The notes under the pieces are model-generated. The model ran no database searches, was not told where the DNA came from, and was given only the letters and a program-made list of their open reading frames with translations. The translations under genes were made by a program, and so were the position numbers. Positions 12,779 through 54,084 of a stretch of 64,000 bases of DNA are shown piece by piece. Each line of letters opens with the position of its first letter. Positions within the stretch are counted from its first letter, which is position 1. The DNA comes from Cytophagales bacterium. GTDB lineage: Bacteria > Bacteroidota > Bacteroidia > Cytophagales > Spirosomataceae. The stretch lies in assembly GCA_013298125.1 (NCBI GenBank), contig JAAFJP010000012.1:62001-126000 (forward strand). Direction: 5' to 3'.

Positions 12779-12867
12779 GCCTCACCCCCAGCCCCTCTCC
12801 CGTGGAGAGGGGAGAGTTAAATCAGGTAGAACTCCCCTCTCCACGGGAGAGGGGCTGGGGGTGAGGC
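12779..12867. repeat. BIME-like double hairpin, 36-bp perfect arms
   Basis: Arms 12779-12814 and 12832-12867 are perfect complements, separated by 17 bases. Each arm can itself fold as CCCCTCTCC-CGT-GGAGAGGGG, so the unit is two hairpins in opposite orientation with an outer tail GCCTCACCCCCAG. A second member of the same family lies at 51624-51712. It sits between two minus-strand genes and could also act as a transcription barrier. Confidence 0.9.
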
Positions 12868-47778: not shown

Positions 47779-48219
47779 ATGGCTCAATCACGTAGTTTTA
47801 TAAATATTTGGATTCATTTCGTCTGGGCAGTAAAAAAGAGAGAACCATTATTATCTAAATCATTTCGAACTAATTTATGCAAACATATCCTTGAAAATGG
47901 ACGTAGTAAAAATATTTATGTGGATATGATTAATGGAGTAGAAGACCATTTGCATTGTTTGGTAAGCTTAAAATCTATTCAGAATGTTTCTGATATTGCC
48001 CAAAAACTAAAAGGAGAATCCTCCAAATGGATTAATGATAATGGATTAGTGAATGGAATTTTTGAATGGCAAGAAGGTTATGGAGCTTTTTCGGTAAGTC
48101 CAGACCCTAAGCATTTAAAAAGAGTTAGAAATTATATTAAAAATCAAGAGAAACACCATGAGCGGAAATCATTTGATGAGGAAATGGAGGAGTTTGAGCG
48201 AATGATTGGAGCTGAATGA
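47779..48219 (+). CDS. Y1 (HUH) transposase, IS200/REP-associated type
   Basis: A 146-residue single-domain HUH enzyme. The HUH motif is H57-L58-H59 in GVEDHLHCLVSL; W97 onward reads WQEGYGAFSVSPD, typical of REP-associated Y1 transposases; the catalytic Tyr is Y119 in RVRNYIKNQEKHH with Q123. All key residues are present. Such enzymes cut and join single-stranded DNA at hairpins. It is bracketed by three perfect palindromes and interrupts the metY-metX interval, with no second (TnpB-like) gene. Confidence 0.92.
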   Translation: MAQSRSFINIWIHFVWAVKKREPLLSKSFRTNLCKHILENGRSKNIYVDMINGVEDHLHCLVSLKSIQNVSDIAQKLKGESSKWINDNGLVNGIFEWQEGYGAFSVSPDPKHLKRVRNYIKNQEKHHERKSFDEEMEEFERMIGAE

Positions 48220-50033: not shown

Positions 50034-50822
50034 ATGAATTTAAGACTATTTTCCGCTGCCCTTATCGTAGGGGCTTTTATGTTTACTTCATGTTCTGACA
50101 TTGCAGAACCATCAACATTAACTCAAACAATTTCAAAAGAAACTGCCGCCAAAATCAATGCTCTTGGTTTTAATGCAGCTAATACTACCAGAATCGCAGA
50201 AGGATATTTGGTAGAAAAAGACATCGTTTTGACAGATGCTGATTTGGCAAAAGGTGCTTTAATGTATGATAAATCAGCACCAAAAGAGGAGCAATATCGT
50301 ACTACTCAGTTAGTTACAGGCTTACCAAGAGTTATCAAAGTAAAAGTTTCAACTACTCTTCCAACTATTTTTGTACAAGGAACTGACGAGATGATTAGCC
50401 GTTATAATGCTCGGGGTTTGCAAATTACTTTTCAAAGAATTACGAGTGGAACAGCAAATATCAATATCACAAAAGATGAGACTTTACCATCTGGTGTATT
50501 AGGTTCTGGTGGCTTCCCAACTTCGTCAGGTAATCCTTTCGGAACTATCAAAATGAAACCATCAACTTTTGGTAGCAGTCCAAGTTTAGGATATGTTGCA
50601 ACTGTACTTACGCACGAAGTAGGGCATTGCATCGGTTTCCGCCATACAGACTATTTTGCACGTGTTTGCGGTGGTGGTAACGAAGGACAGGCTGGTATTG
50701 GAGCAATTCAAATTCCTGGAACGCCCGCTACAATTGACAATGCTTCTTTCATGATTTCATGTACTGGTGGCAACGTTCCATTCTCAGCAAATGACAAAAT
50801 TGCATTAGATGCACTTTATTAA
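50034..50822 (+). CDS. Zinc metalloprotease lipoprotein (HEIGH/M57 type)
   Basis: A 262-residue lipoprotein (signal ending FTSCSD). The zinc motif is HEVGHCIGFRHTD near residue 200, an HExxHxxGxxH pattern; two Cys pairs are likely. The downstream stretch ends with SFMISCTGG and a FSANDKIALDALY tail typical of the dual-action HEIGH peptidases. Likely periplasmic or surface anchored. Single gene with its own terminator. Confidence 0.8.
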   Translation: MNLRLFSAALIVGAFMFTSCSDIAEPSTLTQTISKETAAKINALGFNAANTTRIAEGYLVEKDIVLTDADLAKGALMYDKSAPKEEQYRTTQLVTGLPRVIKVKVSTTLPTIFVQGTDEMISRYNARGLQITFQRITSGTANINITKDETLPSGVLGSGGFPTSSGNPFGTIKMKPSTFGSSPSLGYVATVLTHEVGHCIGFRHTDYFARVCGGGNEGQAGIGAIQIPGTPATIDNASFMISCTGGNVPFSANDKIALDALY

Positions 50823-50906: not shown

Positions 50907-51551
50907 TTAATTAAGGAGGTTTTTCTTGTGCCAATTTTTAGGTATCTTTAAGAATATTTTAGTGCAAATAAAATAGATACATAAACTACTAAAAGTACCA
51001 ATCACAGCCCCGCCAAGTACATCTTCTGGAAAATGCTGGAATAAATAATTGCGTGAATAACCTACCAACCAAGCCATTAAAACGAAGATAAATCCAGTAT
51101 TTTTATGTTTTGAAAAAAAAGTCAATAGAGTAAAAATGGCAAAGCCAGAAGTAGTATGCCCCGACGGGAAACTTTGATGAATATGAATATCAAGCCCTTC
51201 CACAAAATGCCAATTGATATTTAATTCTTTGAAAAACGCCACAGGTCGAAGTGTATCAAAATATAGTTTTAAAGAGCTGGAAATCAAGGTACTAATAATT
51301 AATGTTGTGACTAAAATTAATGCTCTGTCGTATCTTATAAATAAAAAAGCAATGATTAATAATCCCCAAAACCAACCTTCTCCCATTTGGGTAGCCGTAT
51401 AGAAAAACCAATCCGCCCACAATGAATTATGCGAATTTATGAAGGTCATTTGCTCTAATTTTGTGGTTGATAAAACCAATAGTAAAACACAAAACCAGAT
51501 GATTGTGTAGGGAATAAAAAAAGGGAGGTTACTTTTGATAAGTTGTTTCAT
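50907..51551 (-). CDS. PAP2-superfamily membrane phosphatase
   Basis: A 214-residue protein with about six membrane helices and the complete phosphatase signature: K-x6-RP in LKLYFDTLRPVAFF near residue 95, PSGHTTSGF near 129, and SRNYLFQHFPEDVLGG near 168. These enzymes dephosphorylate phosphatidic acid, undecaprenyl pyrophosphate or phosphatidylglycerophosphate at the outer face of the inner membrane. Context does not choose between them. Confidence 0.88.
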   Translation of the reverse strand: MKQLIKSNLPFFIPYTIIWFCVLLLVLSTTKLEQMTFINSHNSLWADWFFYTATQMGEGWFWGLLIIAFLFIRYDRALILVTTLIISTLISSSLKLYFDTLRPVAFFKELNINWHFVEGLDIHIHQSFPSGHTTSGFAIFTLLTFFSKHKNTGFIFVLMAWLVGYSRNYLFQHFPEDVLGGAVIGTFSSLCIYFICTKIFLKIPKNWHKKNLLN

Positions 51552-51623: not shown

Positions 51624-51712
51624 AACCTCACCCCCGACCCCTCTCCGATGGAGAGGGGAGTTTTATTGTCGTATTACTCCCCTCTCCATCGGAGAGGGGC
51701 AGGGGTGAGGTT
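51624..51712. repeat. BIME-like double hairpin, second member of the CCTCACCCCC family
   Basis: Left arm 51624-51660 and right arm 51677-51712 pair with one mismatch and one extra base, around a 16-base spacer. Each arm folds as CCCCTCTCC-GAT-GGAGAGGGG, and the outer tail reads AACCTCACCCC. The plan is the same as 12779-12867, but the loop bases changed from CGT to GAT in both arms. It lies between divergent genes. Confidence 0.88.
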
Positions 51713-51732: not shown

Positions 51733-54084
51733 TTGAAAAACCTTTATCTCTTTTTAATTTTCTTAACATCATCCATTTTCGCCCAAACGATTCAACCCGA
51801 AAGTAATGTAGCTGAGATGGAATTGAGTTTGAATAAAATCAATCTCATACATCGCTTTTTGCCCTTAATCAATGGCGAAGGGTTCACGGTTGCAGTGAAA
51901 GAAAATAAGATAGATTCTCTGGATATTGACTTTCAAGGACGCTTGCTTCGTTCTCCATTAACTTCTTCTTTAATCTCAAATCACGCCGCCGATATGGCTA
52001 CAATTTTGGCGGGCGGAGGTAATAGTTCCGTACTACGCAAAGGAATTGCGTGGAAGGCAAAAATTATGTCCATTTCGTTTTCCAATCTTTTTCCAGAGTC
52101 GGATGATTTCTATCGAAAAAATCAAATTTATCTTGAAAATCATTCGTATGGTACTGATATTCAGAATGTTTACAGTAACGTTGCTCTTGCGTACGATGCT
52201 TCAATTAGTCGTCTGAATGACGTTATACACGTTTTTTCTTCTGGAAATTCTGGAAATATTACTCCCACCGATGGGAATTTTAAAGGCATCGCCAACTACT
52301 CAAATCTGACGGGAAGTTTCAAACAAGCAAAGAATATTATAACAGTCGGGGCTGTTGATTCTGTCGGAAAAATTGAACTCAGAAGCTCTCGTGGACCTAC
52401 CTACGACGGGCGACTCAAACCCGAAATGGTGGCTTTTGGACAGGATGGAAGTTCGGGTGCAGCGGCTTTGGTTTCTGGAGTGGCTACTTTGCTACAACAA
52501 CAATATGCTCAGAGTCGGAATGGTGTTAGACCTCCCTCCCATTTAGTCAAAGCTCTTTTAATCAATAGTGCTGAGAATGTAGGCACGAAAGGCATTGATT
52601 ATCAGAGTGGTTATGGAAATGTCAATGCTTTTGCAGCTATCAAAACACTCAATTCTGGACGTTTTTTGACAGGGGAAATCACAAATTCAAGTACCCAAAC
52701 TTTCAATATTTCAGTACCTTCAAACGTTAAAAACCTGAAAGTTACAATCGTCTGGAACGACCCTCCCGCTCTCGAAAAAGCAACAACAGCCTTAGTGAAT
52801 GACCTTGATTTACAAGTAGTTACTCCCAATGGAATCAGAATTTTGCCTTGGGTTTTGAGTAGCTTTCCAAATGCAGATTCATTAAAAAAACTACCAACTC
52901 GAAGACGAGACGTACTCAATAATATAGAACAAGTTACGATAGAAAACGCTGATGCGGGCAAGTATTTAATTTTAGTTTCAGGATTCAAAATTCCGAAGGG
53001 GACGCAGACTTTTTCAGTAGTTTATGATTGGGAATTGGGAGATGAATTTCAATGGCAATTTCCATTGAGTCAGGATAATATTACGCCCAATGAAAACAAT
53101 CTAATCCGTTGGAAATCAACGTTTTCAGACACAAAAGGAGTATTAGAATACTTACCAAACGGTAGTCGCTCGTGGGTGAGGGTGAGTGATATTGACCTGT
53201 CGAAAGGCTCTTATAAATGGAAAGTACCCAACCTGTTTTATTCTCCTTCTCGTCTGCGAATGAATGTTGCCAATAAAGCCTTTGTGAGTGATACTTTTAG
53301 CGTATCAAAACTCTTAGAAATTAAGTTGGGGTATAATTGTACGGACTCACTTTTATTGTTTTGGAATGCACCCGTTTTTGTGAATAAATATGTAGTTTAT
53401 CAATTAGGCAAGCAATATTTAGAACCCATTTTTCAGACAAATCGGTCATCAATTGTTCTTAATAAAAAGCAATATCAGGGCAAATATTTTGCCGTCGCAC
53501 CCATATTAGATAATGGTAAATTAGGAGCAAGAAGTAATGCAATAGCTATTGATAATCAAGGCGTTGGATGTTTTTTAAGAACGTTTACTGTGGATAATAC
53601 TGATGATAAAAAGGCAGAATTGAAAGTAGAGTTTTCTACCTTAAAACAAGTTTCTTACATCATTTTTCAAAAACTAATTGATGGCATTTACCAAGATTTA
53701 TACAGCTTCATTCCTTTTGAAACAAATCTAAAATACCGATACCAAAACGAGTTAGAACAAGGCGAAAATACGTACAGAATGAAGGTGATTTTTCAGAATA
53801 ATTCCGAAGGTTTTTCAAATAGCGAAACGGTCTTTGTTTTTGGAGAAAATGAATACGTAATTTATCCAAATCCTGTCAGAAAATATGATGATTTGAAGTT
53901 CAAAATCAAAAATCCAAGCAATGAAATTTGGCAACTATACAATGGACTCGGGACTTTGGTTTTACAAAAAGAATTAAAAAATATTGAAGAAATCGAAACG
54001 ATAAATCTACCTTCTGGAATGTATTTTTATCGTATTTTGGATGGGAAAAAGGTTTCGGCTTCGGGGAAATTGGTGGTGGAGTGA
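51733..54084 (+). CDS. S8 subtilase-like peptidase with T9SS sorting domain
   Basis: A 783-residue protein with signal peptide (1-18, ending IFAQ). Its S8 domain spans about 45-310 and shows H84 in SNHAADMATIL, Asn in VFSSGNSGNI near 173 and Ser241 in DGSSGAAALVSG. Where subtilisins have the catalytic Asp (AVxDTG), this protein has VAVKENKID, with Glu57 instead. Beta domains follow, and the last ~75 residues form a type A T9SS C-terminal domain (YVIYPNPVRKYDD, GMYFYRILDGKKV, GKLVVE). So it is exported through type IX secretion. The start is TTG at 51733. Confidence 0.82.
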   Translation: MKNLYLFLIFLTSSIFAQTIQPESNVAEMELSLNKINLIHRFLPLINGEGFTVAVKENKIDSLDIDFQGRLLRSPLTSSLISNHAADMATILAGGGNSSVLRKGIAWKAKIMSISFSNLFPESDDFYRKNQIYLENHSYGTDIQNVYSNVALAYDASISRLNDVIHVFSSGNSGNITPTDGNFKGIANYSNLTGSFKQAKNIITVGAVDSVGKIELRSSRGPTYDGRLKPEMVAFGQDGSSGAAALVSGVATLLQQQYAQSRNGVRPPSHLVKALLINSAENVGTKGIDYQSGYGNVNAFAAIKTLNSGRFLTGEITNSSTQTFNISVPSNVKNLKVTIVWNDPPALEKATTALVNDLDLQVVTPNGIRILPWVLSSFPNADSLKKLPTRRRDVLNNIEQVTIENADAGKYLILVSGFKIPKGTQTFSVVYDWELGDEFQWQFPLSQDNITPNENNLIRWKSTFSDTKGVLEYLPNGSRSWVRVSDIDLSKGSYKWKVPNLFYSPSRLRMNVANKAFVSDTFSVSKLLEIKLGYNCTDSLLLFWNAPVFVNKYVVYQLGKQYLEPIFQTNRSSIVLNKKQYQGKYFAVAPILDNGKLGARSNAIAIDNQGVGCFLRTFTVDNTDDKKAELKVEFSTLKQVSYIIFQKLIDGIYQDLYSFIPFETNLKYRYQNELEQGENTYRMKVIFQNNSEGFSNSETVFVFGENEYVIYPNPVRKYDDLKFKIKNPSNEIWQLYNGLGTLVLQKELKNIEEIETINLPSGMYFYRILDGKKVSASGKLVVE

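Follow-up and report, generated by a model that had tools for sequence, protein, structure and literature searches.

Can a subtilase whose catalytic aspartate is replaced by glutamate work as a protease, and what does it do beside the metallopeptidase whose gene is its almost constant companion? The question is raised by an open reading frame (ORF) at positions 51733-54084, forward strand, of a 64,000-nucleotide stretch of a Cytophagales bacterium (family Spirosomataceae; GenBank assembly GCA_013298125.1, contig JAAFJP010000012.1, positions 62,001 to 126,000), hereafter called the window, which comes from a genome of 5.85 Mb. The ORF encodes an S8 subtilase with Glu57 at the catalytic Asp position and a predicted sorting tail for the type IX secretion system (T9SS), and a gene for an M57 metallopeptidase lies upstream of it, outside the coordinates covered by the initial annotation of the locus. 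We consider it fairly probable that the subtilase is a catalytically competent Glu-His-Ser endopeptidase of the KP-43 branch, which would act on the cell surface together with the M57 protein as a two-protease unit. The subtilase gene is laid out as follows:

51733-54084, + strand: Glu-His-Ser subtilase (S8, KP-43 type) with T9SS tail, 783 amino acids (family alignment, KP-43 profile and model)
51733-51786, + strand: hydrophobic N-terminus, likely a Sec signal peptide, residues 1-18 (by eye; highest ratio of non-synonymous to synonymous substitution rates, dN/dS, of the parts compared)
51877-52617, + strand: Peptidase_S8 domain, residues 49-295 (Pfam PF00082, E-value (E) 1.8e-25)
51901-51903, + strand: codon of Glu57 (GAA), catalytic Asp position by alignment
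51982-51984, + strand: codon of His84 (CAC)
52246-52248, + strand: codon of Asn172 (AAT), oxyanion position
52423-52449, + strand: shortened loop 5' of the nucleophile, residues 231-239 (7 residues between)
52453-52455, + strand: codon of Ser241 (TCG), nucleophile
52660-53043, + strand: PPC-like beta-sandwich as in KP-43 and SubHal, about residues 310-437 (model and fold match; PPC under the Pfam cut-off)
53860-54078, + strand: T9SS type A C-terminal sorting domain, residues 710-782 (PF18962 Por_Secre_tail, E 5.9e-8; TIGR04183)

The ORF starts with TTG, and just six further codons of open frame precede it. The match to PF00082 (90.3 bits against a cut-off of 21.8) places the protein in family S8, and the beta-sandwich is separated from the sorting tail by more beta-rich modules. 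In the ten members of set A1, Peptidase_S8 was detected in all and Por_Secre_tail in seven. The tail is also recognised by NCBIfam (TIGR04183, 46.6 bits, cut-off 23), and the host genome carries a full-length gene for the SprA translocon (2167 bits against 200). As the sorting domain is matched by a T9SS in the host genome, the subtilase is a predicted type A cargo, in line with the T9SS export that the initial annotation had proposed.

Glutamate at the catalytic aspartate position

The segment VAVKENKID had been read as placing Glu57 where subtilases have their catalytic Asp, with His84, an Asn and Ser241 kept, and this reading is borne out across the family. The family set, gathered from 59 relatives, from samples of 390 genomes for the order and 395 for the phylum, and from two named records, consists of 88 full-length members with scores of at least 561 (next best 442); 17 of the 86 order genomes having a full-length subtilase match (E 1e-200 or better) were not fetched. 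For comparison we used 41 relatives outside the family, namely those brought up by the searches, which are no survey of S8. Position 57 is Glu in 84 of the 88 members and Asp in the remaining four (L082-L085, all one genus) and thus acidic in every one; a sequencing error or chance as the source of Glu57 is ruled out because Glu is conserved in 84 members. His84, Asn172 and Ser241 are kept in 88/88, with pairwise identity averaging 48% across residues 30-437, and are included in the 23 invariant columns among the 252 of the S8 domain. In a profile alignment (82 sequences, 74 from the family and eight from outside it), Glu57 aligns with residue 30, an Asp, of KP-43 chain 1wmd, and His84 and Ser241 fall opposite its HGTH and GTSMA motifs. 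The classical Asp-His-Ser order is replaced by Glu57-His84-Ser241, and judged by its residues the window protein is a variant S8 subtilase and no classical member.

A structural model of residues 30-437, built from the same 82 sequences, reaches a mean predicted local distance difference test score (pLDDT) of 97.5 and a predicted template-modelling (TM) score of 0.96; an earlier model, built from ten sequences, had low quality at the active-site loop. Residue 57 comes immediately after strand 52-56, Asn172 follows strand 165-169, and His84 and Ser241 each stand second in a helix (83-93 and 240-261, respectively); these are the places of the catalytic residues in subtilisin. The top solved fold matches are KP-43 (1wmd, TM 0.78) and SubHal (5fax, TM 0.79; both by query length), and the same two proteins give the best sequence profile matches (E 5.7e-58 and 3.8e-55, respectively). 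With an S8 domain followed by a C-terminal beta-barrel and KP-43 as its nearest relative, the protein falls in the KP-43 subfamily. Against an Arcicella orthologue (80% identical), dN/dS is lowest in the S8 domain (about 0.03); next come the two later parts (0.06-0.07), the PPC-like domain (0.15) and the 18-residue signal peptide (0.45). These values are rough, because dS is near saturation.

Two traits of KP-43, the long pre-nucleophile loop and the GTSM-AP motif, are absent from the family. The distance from the KPE motif to the G of GxS is seven residues in 84 members, eight in two and twelve in two, versus 18-29 in the 41 outside relatives, and the profile alignment shows a gap of 26 residues relative to 1wmd just before the nucleophile motif. 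Directly behind Ser stands E, D, N, G, S or Y; Met, which occupies this position in 35/41 outside relatives, is found there in no member, and the Pro three residues further on, present in all 41 of these, is Ala or Ser in 88/88 members. The changed positions correspond to the region before Ser221, to Met222 and to Pro225 of subtilisin, on the leaving-group side of the active site. Given the short loop and the changed residues behind Ser, the leaving-group side should be more open.

In a phylogenetic tree all 88 members are separated from 20 outsiders with a support of 100 (Shimodaira-Hasegawa-like approximate likelihood ratio test, SH-aLRT, quick method). A branch with a support of only 74 sets the 84 Glu members on one side, and the clade with Asp lies close to the family root on a long branch. 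L082-L085 show the same loop and Met/Pro changes as the Glu members, so that Glu either was a later step than the remodelling or has reverted in them. The Asp57 members also share a His-to-Asp swap at position 64 (Asp64 of the window protein, 51922-51924). Glu at the Asp position was found in four of the 41 outside relatives as well (L004, L005, L006 and L041), with the long loop kept, and since the tree needs at least four changes at position 57, some of these cases look like separate events. A related clade (L016, L018, L019) has a short N-terminus and carries the motif QKE, and M57 is missing from two of the three genomes concerned (G012 and G032, the latter incomplete).

Pairing with an M57 metallopeptidase

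Two genes upstream of the subtilase are needed here:

50034-50822, + strand: M57 'HEIGH' metallopeptidase, 262 amino acids, lipoprotein-like N-terminus (PF12388, E 1.1e-43)
50907-51551, - strand: membrane-protein gene between the two proteases, PAP2 phosphatase-like by eye; a homologue adjoins the subtilase in L139

The partner combines the HExxHxxGxxH motif of M57 with the PF12388 match. When the neighbours of the subtilase at 19 loci were compared all against all, an M57 homologue was found near it at 14 loci and every other family at three or fewer. Across 87 loci (L019 was left out, being on a short contig), M57 lies within 3 kb of the subtilase in 72: downstream and convergent in 44, upstream and divergent in 23 and upstream in tandem in five, one of which is the window pair. 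That orientation varies while adjacency stays points to a functional linkage and less to one inherited operon. The 15 loci lacking a nearby M57 gene (L139, L141, L142, L150, L154, L175, L185, L186, L196, L202, L204-L207 and L210; L186 was counted here though one of its flanks is only 92 bp) belong to 13 genomes, 12 of which carry M57 elsewhere, the exception being G012. The two subtilases of genome G040, which share 37% identity, are each matched by a separate M57, the two M57 proteins being 35% identical, and over 72 pairs the distances between subtilases correlate with those between their partners (Spearman 0.73, species kinship ignored). Beside nine S8 loci outside the family (L003-L011), no M57 gene was present within flanks of up to 5 kb, some of them much shorter.

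The zinc motif HExGHxxGxRH is present in all 95 M57 homologues of the 87 regions. A loose regular expression finds a lipobox-like Cys in 92 of the 95, some of these matches being false, and in 76 of those 92, with the same reservation, an acidic residue follows soon after. Surface lipoproteins of Bacteroidota carry an acidic export signal after the lipobox Cys, so that the M57 partner, by its N-terminal sequence, may be a surface lipoprotein.

The two genes also keep company across genomes. In 380 genomes of the order, both were found in 82, the subtilase alone in one (G012), M57 alone in six and neither in 291 (Fisher 7.6e-75), with thresholds of E 1e-200 for the subtilase and 1e-20 for M57; this table was taken as a subset of the 390 and leaves out G402, G407 and G410, three genomes in which both genes are present. 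In the 395 genomes of the phylum, the corresponding numbers are 18, none, five and 372 (Fisher 5.8e-27; thresholds E 2e-167 and 1e-15). Eleven of these 18 pair genomes lie outside the order and seven are common to both samples.

The pair is also carried by plasmids. For instance, the mobilizable plasmid NZ_CP092416.1 of Flagellimonas marinaquae (L224, 3636-7259) has the genes for M57 and for a Glu-type subtilase in tandem with 21 bp between them, so that the pair may move between species, and an Arenibacter plasmid has both matches with the same 21 bp spacing. On a Persicobacter plasmid with a subtilase match, whose type was not established, no M57 gene was present within the 11 kb read. Plasmids H4 and H5 of the proteobacterium Bradyrhizobium septentrionale encode S8 proteases that are 34% identical to the window protein at 80% query cover.

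Directly upstream of the subtilase start in the window, a GC-rich palindrome (30-nucleotide arms, 93% complementary) occupies 51624-51712, and its motifs recur once more at 12780-12866. It looks like a repetitive extragenic palindromic (REP)-type element. A transposase of the IS200/IS605 type, encoded at 47779-48219 (58.1 bits against 55), also matches REP-associated tyrosine transposases, though below threshold, and is possibly related to the palindromes.

Proposed mechanism and competing explanations

We propose that the T9SS would carry the subtilase to the cell surface, where Glu57 would hold and polarise His84 in place of the usual Asp, with His84 as the base, Ser241 as the nucleophile and Asn172 stabilising the oxyanion. 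The M57 zinc metallopeptidase, probably a surface lipoprotein, would be located near the subtilase on the surface, and either one protease may mature the other or both may cut one substrate in turn. An active Glu-His-Ser enzyme is favoured over a pseudo-peptidase because the triad residues are conserved and the remodelling is family-wide. A more demanding version, which we offer only tentatively, is a surface machine in which the subtilase depends on M57, one protease switching the other on, which would be why the subtilase is hardly ever found without M57. Both the shortening of the loop and the replacement of Asp by Glu would then be adaptations to this partnership, for example if the partner had to complete or unlock the active site.

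Several observations weigh against an active, M57-coupled enzyme. Loss of the loop and of Met and Pro behind Ser is atypical of active subtilases. While 79 of the 88 members carry an N-terminal extension of at least 82 residues, measured from the stop codon upstream, nine, the window protein among them, have none, and Pfam recognised no I9 propeptide in the six members scanned. The short form and M57 occur together in G000, G007, G015, G017, G147 and G257, where the short form is the sole full-length subtilase copy. The T9SS tail falls under the Pfam cut-off of 27 bits in L002 (25.0), L014 (16.3) and L082 (20.8). The Fisher values overstate the significance of the co-occurrence because the genomes are related, and genomes were scored from the best two (subtilase) or best six (M57) candidates each. 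G012, a good genome with a full-length subtilase, is without M57, as is G032 (66% complete). The pair is also dispensable, since of the eight genomes of the window genus only G000, G002 and G007 have M57 and the subtilase copy of G004 (G004:C177:4581-5343, L023) is broken by in-frame stops. The co-occurrence extends to this small scale: G004 itself is without M57, G001, G003, G005 and G006 have neither M57 nor a close subtilase match, and G002 carries a tail-end piece of the subtilase in addition to a full paralogue.

The idea that M57 serves solely to cut off the subtilase's N-terminal extension is weakened, because the six genomes with short forms retain M57.

The rival that survives best, possible but in our view doubtful, holds that the two are ordinary digestive proteases that share regulation or habitat, with no direct interplay. 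Both look extracellular, and the three arrangements described above mean that they usually share no operon. Co-regulation would also fit algicidal Kordia, in which the up-regulated protease genes are headed by one M57 and one S8 protease whose locus numbers are not adjacent (PMC10565126), provided that these proteins belong to the present families. Independent genes, however, should often be found apart, whereas M57 is present in 82 of the 83 order genomes and all 18 phylum genomes that have the subtilase. The one-to-one matching of the paralogues in G040 and the rarity of any other neighbour family (in no more than three of 19 loci) also argue for a link of the two proteases beyond shared habitat.

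Less probable, and on balance unlikely, is a pseudo-protease whose fold is kept for binding, for instance to present or scaffold M57, and whose remodelled site no longer cuts. The initial annotation had left the choice between an active variant and a pseudo-peptidase open, and the present data favour the former. Pseudo-enzymes usually lose at least one catalytic residue in so wide a sample; here, neither the nucleophile nor the base is lost in any member, an acid is always present at position 57, and the strongest constraint in the protein falls on the S8 domain. What speaks for a pseudo-protease is that the shortened loop, the absence of Met after Ser and the change of Pro to Ala or Ser are each found in all 88 members. 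Also, SpBcC, a KP-43-type T9SS protease without a propeptide, is described as inactive despite an intact triad (PMC11982257).

It is very unlikely that another acid (Asp61, Asp64 or Asp66) does the catalytic work with Glu57 as a bystander, although the initial annotation had named Asp61 and Asp64 as candidates. Asp64 (Asp in 86 members, Asn in two) does replace a His found in 41/41 outside relatives, and Asp66 is present in 87 members. Position 61, however, is D in 72, N in 14, Q in one and E in one, so that it differs from Asp in 16 of the 88 and is non-acidic in 15, and the two members with Asn at 64 and the one with Asn at 66 all retain Glu57. Among the four positions, constant acidity is restricted to 57. 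Asp66 is likely structural, because D or E is found there in 39 of the 41 outside relatives. Together, Asp61, Asp64 and Asp66 make up an acidic cluster, which could bind a metal.

A sedolisin-like enzyme with Glu as the base, a parallel suggested by the initial annotation for which nothing speaks beyond the presence of a Glu, can be dismissed as wrong, because the sedolisin Glu replaces the His, with its acid four residues on in the same helix (PMC11593635), whereas His84 is invariant here.

Comparison with known systems

A subfamily-wide Glu triad, with one Asp genus in the same remodelled frame, provides a natural test of what is required of a triad acid, and the same set shows which surrounding changes accompany the longer acid side chain. 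The pairing hypothesis touches about 100 genomes in which both genes would pass as unrelated extracellular proteases. The two proteases should hence be studied together, and inactivity of either one alone may stem from the missing partner.

Among characterised proteins, KP-43 (1wmd) and SubHal (5fax) of Bacillus share with the window protein the S8 fold, the C-terminal beta-sandwich and the catalytic His, Asn and Ser. Compared with KP-43, the window protein has Glu57 for Asp30, lacks 26 residues before the nucleophile, is changed at Met and Pro behind Ser and has gained a T9SS tail. A similar architecture is seen in SpBcA, SpBcB and SpBcC of Bergeyella cardium, which are KP-43 subfamily proteases and putative T9SS cargo (PMC11982257), likened here by description. 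Like the window protein, they combine a KP-43-type S8 domain with a T9SS C-terminal domain. SpBcA and SpBcB are active with an Asp133-His160-Ser388 triad, in contrast to the Glu triad found here, and no M57 partner is mentioned in the part of that paper accessible to us.

Sedolisins (S53) resemble the window protein in belonging to a related fold and clan and in having a Glu in the active site, but their Glu is the base, while here it stands in the place of the acid with His present (PMC11593635). Peptidase family M57 (PF12388) is described as a 'dual-action HEIGH metallo-peptidase' family, in which the window partner represents a small form that resembles a lipoprotein and is linked to a single subfamily of subtilases.

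Direct literature searches for a Glu replacing the catalytic Asp of subtilisin returned nothing, and the accessible parts of PMC9549277, PMC3339403 and PMC2605481 contain nothing on Glu at this position. Glu-for-Asp in prokaryotic subtilases has been reported before (Siezen et al. 2007, as cited in PMC2827410). Within the limited paper collection searched, no paper describing the subtilase-M57 pair was found. The abstract of Siezen et al. 2007 (Proteins 67:681) reportedly names a Glu-His-Ser subset of subtilases, whose definition (Glu at the Asp position, His and Ser kept) fits the window protein; that work is not known to describe a shortened loop or a pairing with M57. The triad variant is therefore precedented, and the new part is the subfamily with its loop deletion and near-constant M57 partner.

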